Positions 21,525 to 30,413 of a DNA stretch of 64,000 bases are shown piece by piece. This stretch comes from Pseudomonadota bacterium (GTDB lineage: Bacteria; Pseudomonadota; Gammaproteobacteria; Pseudomonadales; Oceanobacteraceae). The stretch's first letter is position 1. Each line of letters begins with the position of its first letter. The stretch spans positions 124,001 to 188,000 of the forward strand of contig JAIXHJ010000004.1 of NCBI GenBank assembly GCA_030145845.1. The letters are read 5' to 3'. The translations under genes were made by a program, and so were the position numbers. The notes beneath the pieces are model-generated. The model ran no database searches. It had not been told where the DNA came from and worked only from the letters and a program-made list of their open reading frames with translations.

Positions 21525-24000
21525 ATGCCTGACCATTCCTTACCCATCGATGACCTGCTGCCCGCCATCCGCGACCACCTCAGCCAGCAACCGAACCTGC
21601 TGCTCAGTGCCGCCCCCGGTGCCGGTAAAACCACCCGCGTGCCACTGGCCCTGCTGCAGGAGCCCTGGCTGGCGGGGAAGAAAATTCTGCTGCTTGAGCC
21701 ACGCCGTCTGGCCGCACGTAACGCCGCCCGCTTTATGGCAGAACAGCTGGGAGAAGCCGTCGGCGAACAGGTTGGTTACCGCATCCGTCTGGAGCAGAAG
21801 ATCAGTGCCGCGACCCGCATTGAAGTGCTCACCGAAGGCATCCTCACCCGTCTGCTGCAGGACGATCCGGAACTGACCGGGGTCGGTCTGGTCATCTTCG
21901 ACGAATTCCACGAACGCCATCTGCACTCCGATCTGGCGCTGGCGCTGGTGCACCAGTGCCAGCAACTGCTGCGCCCGGATCTGCGTCTGCTGGTGATGTC
22001 TGCCACACTGGATGAACATGCCCTGCAACAGCCGCTGCAGGCGCCACTGCTGCACAGTGAAGGCCGCAGTCATGCGGTCGTTACCCATTACCGTCCCCGT
22101 GCCGATGCCAATACCCGCCTGCCACAGCATATTGCCGCCGTGGTCAGCGAAGCCCTGCAGCAGGCCGGCGATATGCTGGTATTTCTGCCCGGCACTGCCG
22201 ATATCCGCCATACCCGGGAACTGCTGCAGCAGCGCTTACCGGAATCCATACAGCTGCTGCCGCTGCACGGCCAGCTCAGCGACAAAGAACAGAAAACCGC
22301 CCTGCAGCCGGCGGCAGATGGCTCACGCCGCATCATTCTCGCCACCAACATTGCCGAAAGTTCACTTACCATCGACGGCGTGCGCATCGTGATCGACAGC
22401 GGTCTTGAGCGGCGGCTGAGCTTTTCCCCACAGACCGGGGTCAGCGAACTGAAAACCCGCCCGGTGTCGCGCGCCTCGGCCACCCAGCGGGCCGGCCGGG
22501 CCGGGCGTCAGGCCAGCGGTGTCTGCTACCGCCTGTGGCCGGAAAGCGAACACGAACGGCGTGACGCTCATATCCGCGCAGAAATACTGGATGCCGATCT
22601 CGCTCCGCTGCAACTGGAACTGCTGCAATGGGGCGCCGCATCCGGCGAGCTGCTGTGGCTTGATCCGCCGCCGGCCGCCAGCCTCAGTCAGGCCAGCCAG
22701 ACCCTGCACGCACTCGGTATTCAGCAGGACAACCGTCTGACAGAGCACGGGCGGCTGTGTGCCACGCTGGGCACAGAACCGCGGCTGGCGCACCTGCTGG
22801 TCTGTGCTGCCCGGCTGGGCATGGCCCGCAGCGCCTGTGAACTGATTGCCCTGCTGCAGGAATGGCCGCACAGACTGCGCCACAGCGATGACCTGCCGCG
22901 TCTGCTCCAGCAGGCCCGCCGGCAACAATCGCTGTGGCAGCAGCGCGTCCGGCCACTGGCCGATCAGCTATACCGCCGCCTGACCCAGCAGCTGTCAGTG
23001 GCCAGTGAAACTGACGCCGATCCGGCGCTGCTGGTCGCCCTCGCCTGGCCAGAACGCATCGCCCGCCGCCGTCATGCCGGCCAGAACCGCTTTCTGCTCG
23101 CCAATGGCAGCGGTGCAGAACTGACGGAAACATCCGACCTGTTCAACTGCGAATGGCTGGCGCTGGCCGATATCAGCGGTGGCCAGCCCAACCGTATCCG
23201 TCTGGCTGCGGAGCTCAGCCCGGCAGCACTTGACTGCCTGCAGGACACCGCCCCCCCAGCTGTTCAGCCGTCATACCGCCAGTGGCTGGCTGCCATCCGG
23301 TCAGTTGCAGGCAGAACAACAGACCCGCCTCGGCCGCCTTGTGCTGTCGTCCACGCCACTGCCGGCACCCTCGGCAGATGACTGGCAGGCCATCTGGGAT
23401 GATTATTTTGCTGCTCAGGGACTGGCTGTGCTGAACTGGGACGAACACGCCACCAGCCTGCGCCAGCGCCTGCAGCTGCTGCACCAACACCGGCCGCAGG
23501 AATGGCCGGATGTCAGTGATGAGGCCCTGATTCAGACCCGGACAGACTGGCTGCTGCCGTTCTGCAGCCAGGCCCGCCACCAGCGCGATCTGAAGAATAT
23601 CGCCGTCAGTCAGGCGCTGTTATCCCTGCTCAGCTGGGAACAGCAGCAACAGCTTGAGCAGCTGTTGCCAACTCACTGGCAGGTGGCCAGCGGCTCACGT
23701 ATCCGCCTTGATTACAGCACTGAGCCGCCGGTACTGGCGGTTAAGCTGCAGGAAATGTTCGGCTACGAAGGTCAGCCGGCACTGCTCAACGGCCGGGTTC
23801 CGCTGTTGATTCACCTGCTGTCACCAGCCGGACGGCCGTTGCAGGTCACCGCCGATCTGCCGCATTTCTGGCGCCACACCTATGCCGATGTGCGCAAGGA
23901 TATGCGCGGCCGCTACCCCCGCCACCCGTGGCCGGAAGATCCGCTCAGTGCCGAAGCCACGCGACTGACCAAACGGGCCCTGCAGCGCCAGGGCAAATAA
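21525..24000 (+). pseudogene. hrpB: ATP-dependent helicase HrpB, split by a frameshift at a C7 tract
   Basis: The first frame runs from 21525 to 23381 and has the DEAH helicase core: AAPGAGKTTRVP (Walker A), FDEFHERH, VMSATLD, NIAESSLTIDGV and ATQRAGRAGRQASGVCYRLW. It then loses homology after AAELSPAALDCLQDTAPP. The correct continuation, QLFSRHTASGW onward through the HrpB C-terminal domain to RALQRQGK (stop at 24000), is in another frame. The switch falls in a run of seven C at 23251-23257. Six C would restore one frame of about 825 codons, the normal HrpB length. Both halves are otherwise intact, with no stop codons or decay. This may be a fresh mutation, phase variation, or a base-calling error in a homopolymer. 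The truncated product would keep all helicase motifs. Confidence 0.88.
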
Positions 24001-24123
24001 GCCGCCCCGGGAATACACAGCGTAACCATACGTTACAGCATTAAGGGCTTCTGCAGTGGCGATCCGCGTGCGAGGCACTAGCCTTAAAGTCAGTTCCTGA
24101 ATCAGTCATCGACGTGCGCATCC

Positions 24124-24570
24124 ATGCCGGCAAAATATCTGCTTCCCCTGTTTATCCTCGCCGTGATCAGCGCCGGTATCATGCTGTACCAGGTCTGGCA
24201 GGCACCTGAGGTCATTATCAGCGCCGATAATGAGCCACCCTCTGCCGCCACCACACCGTCCCCGGTTCCACACCCTGAACTGAGCACCCGGCATCCGCCG
24301 GCTGAGAGCGCACATCCGCACACGGATGATGACACCCCCCTGCCGGACAATATCGAAATTTATCTGCAGCAACAGCGCCTGCCACGCGACCAGCTGACCG
24401 CTGAGCCGCATCCACACGGCGGCCGCATTACCGATCTCAGAGGTCAGTACCGCACCGTGACCATCGCCATTACCGGTGAAGACGGCAAAGTCCGGCTGGT
24501 TGAACGGCGTATTGACCCGTTACCGGCCCCGGCTGAACCTCCTGCCCCTCCGGCTGCGCCGGCTAACTGA
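24124..24570 (+). CDS. Small membrane-anchored, Pro/His-rich periplasmic protein
   Basis: The protein has 148 residues. One N-terminal membrane helix (about 5-25, LLPLFILAVISAGIMLYQVW) lacks a clear cleavage site and so probably serves as an anchor. A low-complexity Pro/Ser/His region follows, then a short folded segment (GGRITDLRGQYRTVTIAITGEDGKVRLVERRID) and a Pro/Ala tail. I do not recognise the family. It lies 8 bases upstream of the GlyGly-CTERM protein gene, close enough for co-transcription, so it may assist that protein's secretion or activity; this is inference. The ribosome site before the ATG is weak. Confidence 0.65.
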   Translation: MPAKYLLPLFILAVISAGIMLYQVWQAPEVIISADNEPPSAATTPSPVPHPELSTRHPPAESAHPHTDDDTPLPDNIEIYLQQQRLPRDQLTAEPHPHGGRITDLRGQYRTVTIAITGEDGKVRLVERRIDPLPAPAEPPAPPAAPAN

Positions 24571-24578
24571 GACTGCCT

Positions 24579-27500
24579 ATGAACTATTTCCCCGCCCTTG
24601 CCGCCGCCGTTTTCCTGCTGGTCACTGCCGCCGTGCACGCCGATATTGTGATCGTCAACGGCGACAGTGCCGGGGAAGGCCTGAACGACCCCACGCCGGC
24701 AACCGCCGCCGGAGGTAACAGCGGCACGACCGTGGGCGAGCAGCGGCTGAATGTATTCAGCGAGGCAGCCGGTATTCTCAACGCCACCTTCAGTATCAGC
24801 CAGACCATTGCCGTCAACGCGCAGTTCAACAGCCTGACCTGTAATGCCTCTTCCGGCGTACTGGGCAGTGCCGGACCGACCTACAGCTACTCCGCCGTCG
24901 AGGACGGCGTCGGCACGGTTTACCCCATTGGTCTGGCCAATGAGCATTTTGCCACCGACCTGATTCCGGCAGCGGAAGAAATCCAGGCCACCTTCAATGC
25001 CGATCTGGGCACTACGGGCTGTCTGGAAAATACGCCCTGGTATTACGGCTACGACGCCCCACCCGGCACGGAATCCTCACTGCTGTCGGTGGTTCTGCAC
25101 GAACTGATGCATGGCATGGGTTTTCTGTCGATGCTGGGTGAAGACGGTTCGGCACCGGATGTTCACCCGGATGACGGTATTACTGAGATTTACGACCCCT
25201 ATTCACAGCTGCTGTATGACGCCAGTCAGGCACAACGCCTGACCGGTCTCAGCCAGACTGAGCGCGCTGCGGCGCTGCTGAATGATGGCAACCTGCTGTG
25301 GGACGGTGCTCAAACCAACGCCAACCTCAGTGGTCTGAGCGCTGGCGTCAACGGCTCACGGGTGCAGATGTACGCGCCCACCGTGTATGAATCCGGCTCA
25401 TCGGTCAGCCATTTTGACAGCGCGGCCACCCCCAATGAAATCATGGAGCCGGTATACACCGAATTCCTGCAGCAGGCCGGACTCGCGCGCTATGTGCTGG
25501 GCGATATCGGCTGGACACTGGCGGCGGTCACCAACAGCGCTCCGGTGCTGACCGCCATCGCTGATCAGGTTATGGATGAAGACAGCACCCTGACCATCAA
25601 TCTGTCCGCCACGGATGCCGATGCTGACAGCCTGACTTACGCCATCGACTCAGCGGCGGCCGAATTCGGCGCGTCGTTGTCCGCTACGCTGCTGAGCCTG
25701 AACCCACAGGCTGACTACCATGGCAGTGGCAGTATCACCGTCAGTGTCAGTGACGGCAGCGCCACAGATTCCGTCACCTTCGGCCTGACCATCAATGCCG
25801 TCAATGACGCCCCACTGATCAGCGCTGTCGCCGACCAGTCCATCGACGAAGATGACAGCCTCAGTCTGACGCTGGAGGCAACGGATGTGGATGGTGACAG
25901 CCTTGTTTTCTCGCTGTTATCCGCGCCGGCAGAGTCCGGCGCTGAGCTGAACGGCAGCACGCTGACCTTTACGCCCGTTGCCGATTACTACGGCAGCGGC
26001 AGCGTCGGGATACAGGTATCAGACGGCAGCCTGAGCAGCAGCACCAGCTTTACCCTGACCATCAATGCCGTCAACGATATCCCGCAGTTCACCTCCGCCA
26101 GCAACTTTACGCTGGCAGCGGAGGAACTTCTGTCATTGACGCTGACCGCCGACGATAAAGAAACCGCCAGCGATGCACTGGTGTTCAGCCTCGACAGTTA
26201 CGACAGTGCTGCGCTGACAGCGTCACTGTCCGGCAGCCTGCTGAGCGTCACACCAGTCAGCGGAGTCAGTGGTACCAGCACGCTGACCGTATCGGTGTCG
26301 GATGGTACCGTCAGCAGCAGTCAGGACATCATCCTGACCATCCTCAGCGCAGATAACCAGGCCCCCCAATGGGACAGTCTGCCCGCTGTGAGTCTGCTGG
26401 CCGGCAGCTCTGCGGCCGTCACCCTGAGTGCCAGCGACCCCGACGACGATAGTCTGACATTCACCGTTCTCAGCAGCAGCAGCGGCCTGAGCGCCAGCCT
26501 GTCGGGGGATCAGCTGACCATCAGCGCCGCAGAATCAGCCACAGACAGCGGCAGTGTGGCGGTCCGGGTTTCAGATGGCGTACTGACTGCCGACAGCAGC
26601 GTCAGTGTCACTGTGTATCCGGCTTTCAGCCTGACGCAGGACAGTACCGCCAACAGTGACGGCGCAGTGCTCAGTGCCGGCCTGAACGATGTCCTGTTTT
26701 CCCTCAGCGGTGGCGACAGCGCCCTGTCAGTCAGCGTGTTCTACAACGGCAGCAACCGTGACGACCTGCTCAGTTACGACAGCAGCAGCGGCGATTACAC
26801 CCTCGCATTGCCGGACAGCGGTGCCTTCGCCGGCACCTATACCCTGACCGTGACCGACAGTCAGGGATTCAGCGCCAGCTGGTACCTGGAACGGCCACTG
26901 GCGCTGACAGCCGGTGTCACCCCCTTACTGCTGGTCAGTGGCTCACAGCAGCCGCTGACCATCACCGGCGCACCCGCGGCCACCAGTATCGCTCTGAGCA
27001 GTTCTGACACCAGCCTTAGCTTTGCCACAACCGACGGTTCCGCTACCACGCTGGTCACTGCCACAGACGATGCCACAGCCTTTAACCCGGCCAGCGTGCT
27101 GCTGGTTACCGATACAGCGCTGACCACAGCCCTGTCCGCCACCGTCACGGCCAGTGCCAGTAATATTCCGGATTCCTCTGCCGCACTGATATTTGCCCTG
27201 CCCCGCAGCGTACTGTTCACCGTCAATGACAGCGATGGCAACCCCATTACGGCGGCTGACATCAGCAGCGACGATGGCCGTTTCAGCCTCTGGAACCTGC
27301 CGGCCAGTGCCACCAGCAGCAGCGACGGCAGTGTCAGTATGCAGCTGCCGGATGAAGAAATAACACTGAGCGTCAGTGCCGACGGTTACCGCACCGGCAG
27401 CGTTACCGTCAGTGCCGGCGACAGCGACGCCAGTGTCACCCTGATCAGTGCGGATTCGGCTTACACCCTGTACGGCATTGTTTCTGCCAGCGGCTTTACC

Positions 27501-27875
27501 TTTATCGATGAGAATCCGCAGCTGACACTCTGGTTCAGTGACGACAGCAGTGAAACACTGAGCGTCACCAGCATCACCGCCAGCACGGTACGTTACCGCT
27601 GGCAGGGCGATCTGACGGTTGCGACTCCGGTTTATCTGGCGCTCAGTCACAGCCAGGCAGAAACTGCGGAAATCAGCCTCGATACCTCACTCTCCGAACA
27701 GCGCCTGAACGTCACGCTGGAACTGATCACTGACAGCACGGCAACAGAGTCTTCCGGCACCGTAACGTCGTCGTCCTCCACCGGAGGTGGGGCCGGAGCC
27801 TTATTGTGGTTTATACTCGGATTATTATTGCTGTGGCCGCGGCCGGCCAGAGGTCAGTTAAACAGCAGCCAATAA
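24579..27875 (+). CDS. Secreted GlyGly-CTERM protein with metzincin-like zinc site and Ig/cadherin-like repeats
   Basis: The protein has 1098 residues. A signal peptide (FPALAAAVFLLVTAAVHA) is followed by a domain of about 300 residues with HELMHGMGF: His174, Glu175 and His178 form an HExxH zinc site. Further on is SHFD (His278), then NEIMEP with Met289. That order resembles the third zinc ligand and Met-turn of leishmanolysin-type metzincins. At least four Asp/Ser-rich Ig/cadherin-like repeats follow (APVLTAIADQVMDEDSTL, APLISAVADQSIDEDDSL and similar, each ending in VSDGS...LTINAVND or a variant), which may bind calcium. The C-terminus is GGGAGALLWFILGLLLLWPRPAR, a GlyGly-CTERM sorting signal processed by rhombosortase after type II secretion. 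Its amino-acid composition is strikingly rich in Ser, Asp and Thr. Substrate unknown. Confidence 0.85.
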   Translation: MNYFPALAAAVFLLVTAAVHADIVIVNGDSAGEGLNDPTPATAAGGNSGTTVGEQRLNVFSEAAGILNATFSISQTIAVNAQFNSLTCNASSGVLGSAGPTYSYSAVEDGVGTVYPIGLANEHFATDLIPAAEEIQATFNADLGTTGCLENTPWYYGYDAPPGTESSLLSVVLHELMHGMGFLSMLGEDGSAPDVHPDDGITEIYDPYSQLLYDASQAQRLTGLSQTERAAALLNDGNLLWDGAQTNANLSGLSAGVNGSRVQMYAPTVYESGSSVSHFDSAATPNEIMEPVYTEFLQQAGLARYVLGDIGWTLAAVTNSAPVLTAIADQVMDEDSTLTINLSATDADADSLTYAIDSAAAEFGASLSATLLSLNPQADYHGSGSITVSVSDGSATDSVTFGLTINAVNDAPLISAVADQSIDEDDSLSLTLEATDVDGDSLVFSLLSAPAESGAELNGSTLTFTPVADYYGSGSVGIQVSDGSLSSSTSFTLTINAVNDIPQFTSASNFTLAAEELLSLTLTADDKETASDALVFSLDSYDSAALTASLSGSLLSVTPVSGVSGTSTLTVSVSDGTVSSSQDIILTILSADNQAPQWDSLPAVSLLAGSSAAVTLSASDPDDDSLTFTVLSSSSGLSASLSGDQLTISAAESATDSGSVAVRVSDGVLTADSSVSVTVYPAFSLTQDSTANSDGAVLSAGLNDVLFSLSGGDSALSVSVFYNGSNRDDLLSYDSSSGDYTLALPDSGAFAGTYTLTVTDSQGFSASWYLERPLALTAGVTPLLLVSGSQQPLTITGAPAATSIALSSSDTSLSFATTDGSATTLVTATDDATAFNPASVLLVTDTALTTALSATVTASASNIPDSSAALIFALPRSVLFTVNDSDGNPITAADISSDDGRFSLWNLPASATSSSDGSVSMQLPDEEITLSVSADGYRTGSVTVSAGDSDASVTLISADSAYTLYGIVSASGFTFIDENPQLTLWFSDDSSETLSVTSITASTVRYRWQGDLTVATPVYLALSHSQAETAEISLDTSLSEQRLNVTLELITDSTATESSGTVTSSSSTGGGAGALLWFILGLLLLWPRPARGQLNSSQ

Positions 27876-27917
27876 AAACCGGTTACCGCCGGAACGGACT
27901 CAGGCAGAAGAGCGCCC

Positions 27918-30413
27918 ATGCAGAACAGGATGTTAATCACCGCCAGGCAGCTCAGCAGAATGATCATTGCCACCATTCTGCTGTTGTTTGTGCAGCCATT
28001 ACTGGCCGCGTCCGCCGCGTCTGCGCACATCACCCTGTCGCCGCAGACACCTCACTACACCAGCGCCGGCGCGCTTTATTATATTGAAGACCCGCTGGGG
28101 CAATGGTCTCTGCCCTATCTGCTGGAGCAGAATATTCCCCTGCAGCCTTATCCGAAAGCCGTCTTTAACGAAGGTTTTACCGCTTCAGCCTACTGGCTGC
28201 GGCTGGATGTTGATGGCAGTCAGAGTCCGGACGAAGAGTGGTTACTGGAAATTAATTACCCTCTTCTCGATGTGGTTAATATTTATCTGCTGGATAAAAA
28301 CAACCAGCTGATCCGTGAATATCCGCTCGGCGATCTGCACCCGTTTGCCGATCGTCCCTTCACCCACCGTAATTTTATTGTGCCGCTGAATTTCCGCGAA
28401 CATCCCTGGCAGCGCCTGTTGATTAACGTCGAAACCAGCAGCTCCATGCAGGTGCCGCTGAATTTCTGGGAAGTGAATCATTTCGTCGATCAGCGCAGCA
28501 ACGAACAGTATGGTCTGGGGCTGTATTACGGCATGATGCTGGTCATTTTCCTGTATAACTTCTTCCTCTGGACCAGCATCCGCGACACCAATTACCTGCA
28601 TTACATCGGTTATATTGCTGCCTTTGCCACCCTGCAGCTGGCCACCAGCGGACTGGGGTATCAGTTTATCTGGCCCGATTCCGCCTGGTTCCAGCAACTG
28701 GCGGTGCCGCTGACCATTGGACTGGTCGGGGTATTCGGCAGCACCTTTACCCGCGGTTTCCTGCAGACGCGGATCAATCACCGTTATGCCGATCTGGCGC
28801 TGCGTTTCTGTCTGCTGCTGTCGGCAGCCATCTGTGTCAGTGCTTTCCTGTTTGATACCGCCACGGTCATGAGTACCGGTAAATTTGTGGTGGTGATTTT
28901 CCTTGCCACCGTTTTTTACGCTTCAATTTCCATGCTGATCAAAGGCCAGAGTCAGGCGCGCTATTTTCTCGCCGCCTGGGTCATGCTGATTATCGGCGGC
29001 ATGATCACCATCGGCATGATGCTGGGTTATCTGCCCAATAATATGTGGACTATCCATGCCAGCAAATTCGGCAGCAGTATCGAAATTGTGTTGTTGTCTT
29101 TCGCCCTCGCCGACCGGATTAAAATTCTGCAGCGCGCCAAGCTGCAGGCCGAAGAACGGATGAAAAAAGAGCTGGAGGAACGCGCCCAGCGGCTGGCCGA
29201 GTCCAACCGGCTGAAAAATGATTTTCTCGCCACCATCGGTCACGAATTCCGCACGCCACTGAACGGCATTATCGGCTCACTGGAACTGGCCGGAGACGAA
29301 CAGGGAGAGGCACTGCGGGCCACACTGCAGGACGCCCGCGAAAGTGCCGGCGATATGCTGGATTTAGTGGATAACGTGCTGACCTACACGGAACTGCAGG
29401 CCGGCAACCGGATTCTGGCGCCGGAAACGGTCGAACTGCAGCCGGTGATCCGCAGCACATCAGAAGCCATCCAGCACAAATGCCGGGAAAAACAGATCGG
29501 CTTTGAGCTGACATTCGCCCCTGGCCTGCCGCTGATGATCCGCGCCGATATCAAATGCATCCGCCACGCCATCAAGGCGCTGCTGGAAAACTCGGTGAAA
29601 TTCACCGAGCACGGTAACGTGGTGATGGAAACCGGCTTCGGCCAGCTGCAGGGCATGCCCTGTCTGGATATTCTGATCCGTGATACCGGCATCGGCATGA
29701 CCGCCGCCGAGCTGAGCAGAATTCAGGATTACCTGTGTCAGGGTGATACCTCCATGCAGCGCCAGTATCAGGGCCTGGGCATCGGCCTGTCACTGGTCAA
29801 AGCCGTCTGTCACTGCATGCAGGGCGAAGTGACCATCCACAGCGAAAAACATCAGGGAACCCGGGTGCGGCTGAAACTGCCGGTGCAGCCACTGGGCACC
29901 CCGGATCACAGCACCCTGCGCCAGCCTGAACCCAGTGCCGGCTTTGTGGCCATCGAACATATCCGCGGCCGGGCACTGGTGGTGGAAGACAATACCGTCA
30001 ACCAGCGGGTGCTGAATTCCATGCTCAACCGGATGCATATTGAAACCGACGTGGCCGACAACGGCGAACGTGCGCTGGAACTCCTGCAGAGTCAGCGCAA
30101 ATATCATTACGACCTGATTTTTATGGACTGCCAGATGCCGGTGATGGATGGCTTTGAAGCCACACGCCGTATCCGTGCCGCGAACCTGCCCGAGAATGAC
30201 CGGCCAGTGATCGCCGTCACCGCCAATGCCATGTCCGGTGACGAACAACGCTGTCTGGATGCCGGGATGAGCGACTACCTGAGCAAACCGGTGTCGATGG
30301 AGTCGGTACGCAGCATGGTGCACAAATGGCTGCCGGCAGCGGCCCTTACAGCCACGGACCAGCCAGAAGCTTCACCGCCACCGCCACCGTCACCACCTCA
30401 TAAACCCGCTTAA
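27918..30413 (+). CDS. 7TMR-DISM hybrid sensor histidine kinase with receiver domain
   Basis: The 831-residue protein has a signal peptide and an extracytoplasmic 7TMR-DISM extracellular domain (about 40-190, FNEGFTASAYWLRLDV). Seven membrane helices follow (about 200-390, YYGMMLVIFLYNFFLW onward), then a coiled coil, HisKA with His442 in GHEFRTPLNG, and HATPase with DTGIGM and GLGIGLSLV. A C-terminal receiver has VVEDN, Asp737 in FMDCQMP and the Lys in LSKPVS. This is the RetS/LadS type layout; in Pseudomonas such proteins feed the Gac/Rsm pathway and biofilm choices. The proline-rich tail (SPPPPPSPPHKPA) lies opposite the end of the convergent TauE gene, a 68-base overlap. The start at 27918 is likely, with a second ATG at 27930 having a similar context. 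Confidence 0.9.
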   Translation: MQNRMLITARQLSRMIIATILLLFVQPLLAASAASAHITLSPQTPHYTSAGALYYIEDPLGQWSLPYLLEQNIPLQPYPKAVFNEGFTASAYWLRLDVDGSQSPDEEWLLEINYPLLDVVNIYLLDKNNQLIREYPLGDLHPFADRPFTHRNFIVPLNFREHPWQRLLINVETSSSMQVPLNFWEVNHFVDQRSNEQYGLGLYYGMMLVIFLYNFFLWTSIRDTNYLHYIGYIAAFATLQLATSGLGYQFIWPDSAWFQQLAVPLTIGLVGVFGSTFTRGFLQTRINHRYADLALRFCLLLSAAICVSAFLFDTATVMSTGKFVVVIFLATVFYASISMLIKGQSQARYFLAAWVMLIIGGMITIGMMLGYLPNNMWTIHASKFGSSIEIVLLSFALADRIKILQRAKLQAEERMKKELEERAQRLAESNRLKNDFLATIGHEFRTPLNGIIGSLELAGDEQGEALRATLQDARESAGDMLDLVDNVLTYTELQAGNRILAPETVELQPVIRSTSEAIQHKCREKQIGFELTFAPGLPLMIRADIKCIRHAIKALLENSVKFTEHGNVVMETGFGQLQGMPCLDILIRDTGIGMTAAELSRIQDYLCQGDTSMQRQYQGLGIGLSLVKAVCHCMQGEVTIHSEKHQGTRVRLKLPVQPLGTPDHSTLRQPEPSAGFVAIEHIRGRALVVEDNTVNQRVLNSMLNRMHIETDVADNGERALELLQSQRKYHYDLIFMDCQMPVMDGFEATRRIRAANLPENDRPVIAVTANAMSGDEQRCLDAGMSDYLSKPVSMESVRSMVHKWLPAAALTATDQPEASPPPPPSPPHKPA

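Follow-up and report, generated by a model that had tools for sequence, protein, structure and literature searches.

A predicted leishmanolysin-like surface protease and a linked membrane-anchored partner in a member of the Oceanobacteraceae

Does a long, repeat-rich protein with a zinc-protease-like head act as a surface metzincin, and what does the small gene in front of it contribute? The question is raised by a 64,000-nucleotide (nt) stretch of contig JAIXHJ010000004.1 from a member of the Oceanobacteraceae (the window, whose positions are used below), in a host genome of 4.08 Mb in 24 contigs. The protease gene is a 1098-amino-acid (aa) open reading frame (ORF) with an ATG start on the plus strand at 24579-27875, and 8 nt separate its start from the stop of the upstream gene, referred to as the partner. 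The original prediction was confined to the protease ORF and missed the partner, which is a new element. We consider it probable that the two genes form a module, in which a surface leishmanolysin-type zinc endopeptidase is encoded together with a dedicated membrane-anchored helper or latency partner. The features are listed below; G and L numbers denote genomes and loci.

24124-24570, plus strand: small partner protein, 148 aa, with a hydrophobic N-terminal anchor, an Ala/Pro-rich low-complexity linker containing HPH-TDDD, and a conserved C-terminal domain
24340-24522, plus strand: C-terminal domain of the partner, residues 73-133, LPDNIEIY...ERRIDPL (iterated search E 7e-24; 17-sequence profile A7, E 3.6e-27)
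24579-27875, plus strand: predicted leishmanolysin-like metzincin with repeats and a GlyGly-CTERM-like tail, 1098 aa
24579-24641, plus strand: signal peptide from the sequence, residues 1-21, cleavage after VHA by eye
24642-25526, plus strand: predicted catalytic domain, residues 22-316, without a Pfam match and with a weak NF038122 match
25098-25121, plus strand: HELMHGMG, residues 174-181, putative zinc-binding and catalytic motif
25410-25412, plus strand: His278, which would be the third zinc ligand; in the alignments, NF038122 and M8-like proteins have their SHW/GHW histidine at this position
25434-25451, plus strand: NEIMEP, residues 286-291, proposed Met-turn (Met289 is His278 + 11)
25800-26063, plus strand: best-scoring cadherin-like repeat, residues 408-495 (Cadherin_5, Big_9, tandem-95), one of four stretches passing overall
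27780-27872, plus strand: GlyGly-CTERM-like tail from the sequence, consisting of TGGGAGA, a hydrophobic stretch, and RPARG

All sequence elements named by the original prediction are borne out, including the signal peptide, HELMHGMG, His278 (within VSHF), NEIMEP, the repeats, and the GGG-hydrophobic-Arg tail. The signal peptide calls for some caution in that Lys and Arg are absent ahead of its hydrophobic core. Pfam families over cut-off cover only the repeats, namely Big_9 (1.7e-25) and Cadherin_5 (7.5e-22), each in four stretches, and Cadherin_4; the NCBIfam tandem-95 repeat scores 94.7 bits. When residues 1-317 were searched alone, no Pfam family matched at E 1, and the sole NCBIfam match at E 1 was NF038122. 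Columns with at least 85% conservation begin at G34, 13 residues past the predicted signal cleavage. Hence, no room was seen for a pro-domain between the signal peptide and the conserved catalytic region.

The catalytic domain is encoded in 47 of 192 related genomes. The named relatives, at 59-62% identity, belong to Thalassolituus sp., T. alkanivorans, a 'Thalassobium' metagenome-assembled genome (MAG), and a Saccharospirillaceae MAG, and the protease ORF of the same-genus genome G001 has 1181 aa. In a phylum-wide search of 398 genomes, with at most five candidates scored per genome, 11 genomes including the window's own match at E 0.001, four of them weakly (E 5e-5 to 6.5e-4). No relative was confirmed by pattern in three scans of viral contigs, and plasmids gave no match. 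Among the relatives, some protease frames are interrupted: one TAG lies inside the match of G002 (L006), the L036 ORF of G133 begins at the HExxH region, and L111, also of G133, consists of two ORFs. These copies are possibly decayed genes or assembly errors.

We then inspected which residues are conserved. HExxH is present in all 30 fetched loci, in 28 by pattern and in L024 and L029 by a looser pattern. The rows of the 30-row alignment were chosen by the pattern HExxHxxG, so H174, E175/D, H178, and G181 are conserved by selection. L024 and L029 missed this pattern, L034 and L035 were omitted as duplicates, some near-duplicates remain, and the L006 and L036 rows are without the N-terminal part. 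The positions H278, F279, P285, M289, E290, T294, G301, D309, G311, and W312, none of which was selected for, are identical in all 30 rows. This bears on whether the protein is simply an adhesin, the metzincin-like head being no working protease and the repeats doing the work. Repeats and tail do make up about 780 of the 1098 residues, and the protease activity is putative. However, a dead head would be expected to lose its ligands in some lineages, and HExxH is kept in all 30 fetched loci and the proposed third His and Met in all 30 aligned rows, even though some of the relatives are much reduced in length (364-654 aa in L110, L098, and L101). We therefore regard the adhesin explanation as improbable.

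The relationship of the head to known metzincins was examined by profile-profile alignment with hhalign. From the 30 rows, 21 were retained after near-duplicates and truncated rows were left out. Against six NF038122 members, this profile gave an E-value of 3.2e-13 and a score of 98.4; against three bacterial M8-like proteins obtained by a PF01457 search, it gave an E-value of 2.4e-7 and a score of 57.3. The former set comprises six of the nine NF038122 hits above cut-off (L064, L065, and L079 were left out), and the latter three of four PF01457 hits (L056, below cut-off, was left out). Both alignments pair HExxH, the third His, the Met, and the DIGW end. In controls of 60 shuffles each, shuffled columns reached at most 25.4 (NF038122) and 21.4 (M8-like), and reversed profiles 16.8 and 17.2, respectively. 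With the HExxH block kept and the rest shuffled, the maxima were 62.0 and 43.2. As the observed scores are above these values, the region outside the motif contributes signal. The M8-like profile in turn reaches leishmanolysin (1lml) at E 6.4e-6, over HExxH, SH, and ELM, with GSAGSH and DELMAP aligned. NF038122 itself is matched by all 21 alignment members, with a best E-value of 2.4e-14. These alignments support the part of the original prediction that takes the protein for a secreted zinc protease with a surface-sorting tail, which would be leishmanolysin-like.

The other part of that interpretation, according to which the roughly 100-residue gap between HExxH and the third His marks an undescribed subfamily, does not stand. 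Counted between the last His of HExxH and the third His, the loop is 100 residues long in the window protease and 93-109 in its family (20 of 21 rows; L027 left out). The three bacterial M8-like proteins have loops of 47, 58, and 59 residues, the six NF038122 members loops of 78-81, and four relatives with a PA domain loops of 234-261, giving an overall range of 47-261 in related proteins. By contrast, the spacing from the third His to the Met is 11 in the window family, in the three M8-like proteins, in the four PA types, and in 1lml. Within the window family, 19 of 21 rows were measured by script, and L009, whose Met-turn is NEVMEP, and L027, whose third His stands in AHF, were measured by eye. 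The spacing is 8 in L040, L043, and L044, and variable in NF038122. The long gap is, judging from these alignments, an M8-type arrangement with a length-tolerant loop, and gap length was rejected as a subfamily mark.

How would such a protease be sorted to the surface? Its C-terminal tail reads TGGGAGALLWFILGLLLLWPRPARGQLNSSQ, in which a Gly-rich motif, a hydrophobic stretch, and basic C-terminal residues follow one another, TGGGAGALLWFILGLLLLWPRPARG. The tail of the orthologue L034 passes the GlyGly-CTERM model TIGR03501 (20.6 versus 15.5 bits), whereas the window tail does not. The tails of L036 and L037 were not listed by the model at E 1. For the window tail, MYXO-CTERM was listed at 11.9 bits, the cut-off being 20. 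Over the whole genome TIGR03501 gave no match, and controls likewise gave none, so that scan is uninformative. The original prediction had named a rhombosortase gene elsewhere in the genome as a check, and one is present on contig 6 (TIGR03902, 146.1 bits; cut-off 84). The host genome also encodes GspD of the type II secretion system (T2SS; 542.1 bits, cut-off 351.35). Rhombosortase above cut-off is found in 40 of the 47 protease genomes versus 47 of the 145 others; since rhombosortase is present in almost all of the host family, shared descent confounds this association. The serine protease VesB is reported to be cleaved by rhombosortase, to be conjugated to a moiety containing glycerophosphoethanolamine, and to depend on the T2SS for its display on the surface (PMC6219818). 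A GlyGly-CTERM tail and rhombosortase are described as sufficient for membrane association, but not for crossing of the outer membrane (PMC13393428). Elsewhere in the protease family, IPTL-like tails replace the GlyGly ones in L118 (1832-6031), L114, L115, L098, and L101. Of these, only L118, which comes from another bacterial family than the host's, passes the IPTL-CTERM cut-off (21.0 versus 20.5).

The partner accompanies the protease closely. By eye, its conserved domain has the consensus LPxxIxxxIExxRIPxSxL...GxxxxxxGQxxTVxxAxIxEDGxxxxxERxIxP. Profile A7, in which the window copy is among the 17 rows, was searched over the 192 related genomes with at most 30 candidates scored per genome. 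At E 0.01, 42 genomes match, comprising 39 of the 47 with the protease and 3 of the 145 without it. The three protease-free matches are a weak hit in G029 that crosses two stops, a weak hit in G173, and a hit at a contig end in G180. Within the host family, the partner occurs in 31 of 31 protease genomes and in one of 13 protease-free genomes (G029), some of the 13 being incomplete. Among 47 hit positions, 40 are upstream of a protease on the same strand within 1.1 kb, three are downstream (G038, G027, and a weak one in G024), and four are near no protease on the same contig and strand. Across the 398 phylum genomes, with 14 candidates scored in each, A7 gave three weak hits (E 0.002-0.009) besides the window's own.

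An iterated profile search was made among 365 neighbour ORFs, which came from loci chosen for holding a protease. It recovered 36 partner ORFs, all adjoining a protease ORF on the same strand within 1.2 kb, and in 10 pairs the two genes overlap by exactly 4 nt. An N-terminal hydrophobic stretch is present in 36 of 36 partners versus 107 of 293 other neighbour ORFs of at least 120 aa. Seen from the 56 protease ORFs, 36 have a partner upstream, two have one downstream only, and 18 have none detected; in this set some genomes are represented twice, and L111, with its broken frame, counts as two ORFs. For five of the 18, the gene immediately ahead is itself a protease ORF (one each in L090, L092, L094, L119, and L121), and three have little or no upstream sequence (one each in L090, L107, and L121). 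Three are PA types (L039, L041, and L049) with an upstream hit to NF047450, a family considered below. In four (L103, L104, L109, and L113), a small, more divergent upstream ORF was seen by eye. L040 and L102 are one protease counted twice, whose upstream ORF shares by eye only a GGG-type motif, and in L112 no partner-like upstream ORF was seen by eye. The putative partners at L103 5716-6117 and L104 4106-4642 look lipoprotein-like (LMLSGC and FMTTGC); they have mostly lost the conserved domain and keep only the motif GGGM-I-D-KGHFRQ.

Tandem protease copies occur in L090, L092, L094, L100, L106, L119, L121, and L122, and the second copy is partnerless in some pairs. In the L100 and L122 tandems, each protease has its own partner. 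Between these two loci, the first partners share 71% identity and the second partners 47%, compared with 28-36% otherwise; the proteases at the same position share 79% and 62%, compared with 49-53% otherwise. Over 22 pairs, partner and protease identities correlate with a Spearman coefficient of 0.73, species relatedness being uncontrolled.

The linkage admits another explanation, namely that the protease has the partner as its substrate, or that the partner is an unrelated hitch-hiking membrane protein, being in either case neither chaperone nor inhibitor. Gene order alone cannot separate a substrate from a helper, and the order is not fixed, the partner lying downstream of the protease in G038 and G027. 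However, the partner stays with the protease where the other neighbours change (L098, L101, L105, and L114-L118), and the tandem copies match as pairs. Moreover, it is absent from the 12 remaining protease-free genomes of the host family, the G029 hit being of the poor quality described above. We give this explanation as a whole a minor share of the probability: a mere hitch-hiker is unlikely, whereas a substrate is possible and is the main rival to a chaperone or latency role.

The linker suggests a further role, that of a periplasmic zinc metallochaperone loading the protease via a His/Asp-rich stretch. HxH occurs in the body of 25 of 36 partners, some of which contain stretches such as DHDHDH and HHDHPHSHDH. 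Nevertheless, the part that is conserved is the C-terminal domain and not the His stretch, and the body of L116 is without any His. Since 11 of the 36 partners are without HxH, we rank this role low and hold it to be improbable as well.

Is the partner domain then related to anything described? Against the PDB, the partner profile found only three chains, at E 0.48 or worse, and no description of the partner was found in the open-licence literature, subscription papers being largely outside that search. The NCBIfam family NF047450 (post-PEP-CTERM-1; cut-off 28 bits) was scanned over 53 genomes, mostly chosen for holding a protease. At E 1, neither the window genome nor the window partner scanned by itself gave a match. 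Immediately ahead of PA-type proteases, it scores above cut-off in G466 (97.9 and 76.3 bits at two loci) and in G456 (38.6). The partner of G133 scores 28.7 bits in the genome scan and 27.0 when the ORF is scanned alone, and the partner is hit more weakly in G160, G019, G014, G149, G018, G101, G064, G061, G023, G060, and G034. Altogether, 15 of the 47 hits at E 1 are on a partner or directly upstream of a PA-type protease, and 32 are elsewhere. Against a relationship, the profile-profile alignment of A7 with NF047450 shows weak similarity, with a score of 19.9, a probability of 5.7, and an E-value of 0.0066, the maximum of 60 shuffles being 15.3. Overall, a distant relationship between the partner and NF047450 is possible to likely.

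Each of the two G466 loci (L169 and L170) holds a cassette in which genes for a secreted protein with a PEP tail and for an NF047450 protein accompany the gene of a PA-type protease, so that the cassette occurs twice in one genome. The ORF ahead of the NF047450 gene has a PEP-type tail at both loci (VPEPAAWMM... and VPEPASIALM...), and this preceding ORF may be the source of the name 'post-PEP-CTERM-1'. In the open-licence literature, no paper was found on NF047450/post-PEP-CTERM or on NF038122/metallo_LGF. We tentatively suggest that the partner family, NF047450 included, serves leishmanolysin-like bacterial metzincins lacking a pro-domain, either as secretion chaperones or as pro-domains acting in trans. 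The partner tracks the protease across GlyGly-like, IPTL-like, and other tail types, so its function would be tied to the protease and not to PEP-CTERM sorting. We hold this broader suggestion to be less likely than not, the more so because A7, with 14 candidates scored per genome, listed neither G466 nor G456 in its 398-genome search.

Several observations weigh against the module as proposed. On the protease side, no PDB chain was matched at E 10 by the protease sequence or its 21-row profile; the step from the window protease to leishmanolysin is therefore indirect, via the bacterial M8-like proteins. PF01457, the Pfam M8 family, has no match in the host genome and none in the protease at E 1, and the window copy is below the NF038122 cut-off (35.7 versus 80 bits). 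Among the NF038122 hits left out of the alignment, L065 and L079, both above cut-off, have HExxH but by eye no SHW...MDP, and no HExxH was seen in L064. Thus, the pairing of the third His rests on six of nine members. An AlphaFold2 model of the catalytic domain from five sequences had a pLDDT of 32.8, and nothing was drawn from it. As to sorting, the window tail is not listed by TIGR03501 even at E 10, and seven of the 47 protease genomes are without rhombosortase above cut-off. For the partner, the A7 counts are bounded by the numbers of candidates scored per genome. The profile misses eight of the 47 protease genomes, some of which have a more divergent small upstream ORF, and G075 (L112/L176) has none by eye. 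Co-occurrence of partner and protease in related genomes is confounded by shared descent, and the partner-domain AlphaFold2 model (pLDDT 54.0) was not used.

Taking both sides together, we still favour the two-gene module and propose the following mechanism. The second gene would encode a leishmanolysin-type zinc endopeptidase, with HExxH, a third His about 100 residues on, and a Met-turn 11 residues later. The protease would be exported by Sec and cut by rhombosortase at its GlyGly tail. The type II system would bring it to the outside, where it would stay attached to the cell surface, and the cadherin-like repeats may form a stalk or binding part. The product of the first gene would be a small periplasmic protein, anchored in the inner membrane, which the protease encounters as it enters the periplasm. 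There, the partner could act on the protease as CpaB does on CpaA, by helping it to fold for type II secretion. Alternatively, it could hold the protease inactive until exit and serve as a pro-domain in trans, an option raised because no pro-domain was seen in the protease. Membrane-anchored helpers encoded beside the enzymes secreted by the T2SS, such as CpaB and LipB, are a described pattern (PMC4713064). The window partner adjoins its presumed effector and has an N-terminal transmembrane segment, as is given there for T2SS chaperones, the protease being itself a predicted T2SS effector. From this match of layout we infer a chaperone or latency role.

Downstream of the protease, a large plus-strand ORF at 27918-30413 looks by eye like a sensor hybrid histidine kinase (HEFRTPL and a receiver-like end), and the genus as well as several genomes of the host family have it at the same position. 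A promoter scan of 23900-28100 gave no sigma-70-like site and is uninformative.

With the proposed assignment, a protease family that Pfam leaves uncovered gains a place beside leishmanolysin and NF038122. The loop ahead of the proposed third zinc ligand appears to tolerate inserts up to a whole PA domain, and between His and Met the spacing remains 11. Should the partner indeed be a chaperone or latency factor, it would explain how a metzincin without a pro-domain crosses the periplasm, and it may give a function to a domain that NCBI names only by its neighbour.

Compared with M8 leishmanolysin (PF01457; 1lml), the window protease has the same HExxH, a distant SH.. with the proposed third His behind a long insert, the proposed E-[LI]-M Met-turn 11 residues later, and the D-[IL]-G-[WFY] end. 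It differs in that its genome has no PF01457 match, in its longer loop, in that no pro-domain was seen, and in its cadherin-like repeats and GlyGly-CTERM-like tail. The six aligned members of NF038122 (metallo_LGF) share the order HExxH, SHW/SHF, M[DN]P/MEP, and IGW, but two of them have by eye a VPEP-type tail and the others related Pro-rich tails, not GlyGly. The PA-domain relatives (L039, L041, L042, and L049) have the same catalytic domain (hhalign E 5.3e-75) and the same His-to-Met spacing, but their PA domain (PF02225) is inserted between HExxH and the third His. The partner resembles its counterparts in CpaA/CpaB and LipA/LipB (PMC4713064) as a small N-terminally anchored protein whose gene adjoins that of an enzyme presumed to be secreted, in a genome that has GspD. 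CpaB is an SRPBCC protein and LipB a lipase chaperone, whereas the window partner has an unclassified domain of about 60 residues and a putative role in secretion. The three classical NF047450 proteins have by eye signal peptides in place of the partner's anchor. Finally, the protease shares with GlyGly-CTERM/rhombosortase proteins such as VesB (PMC6219818, PMC3237569) the tripartite tail and a genome that encodes rhombosortase and GspD. VesB itself belongs to the serine proteases, and metalloproteases with a GlyGly-CTERM tail are known from other families, such as PF05547 (PMC3237569).

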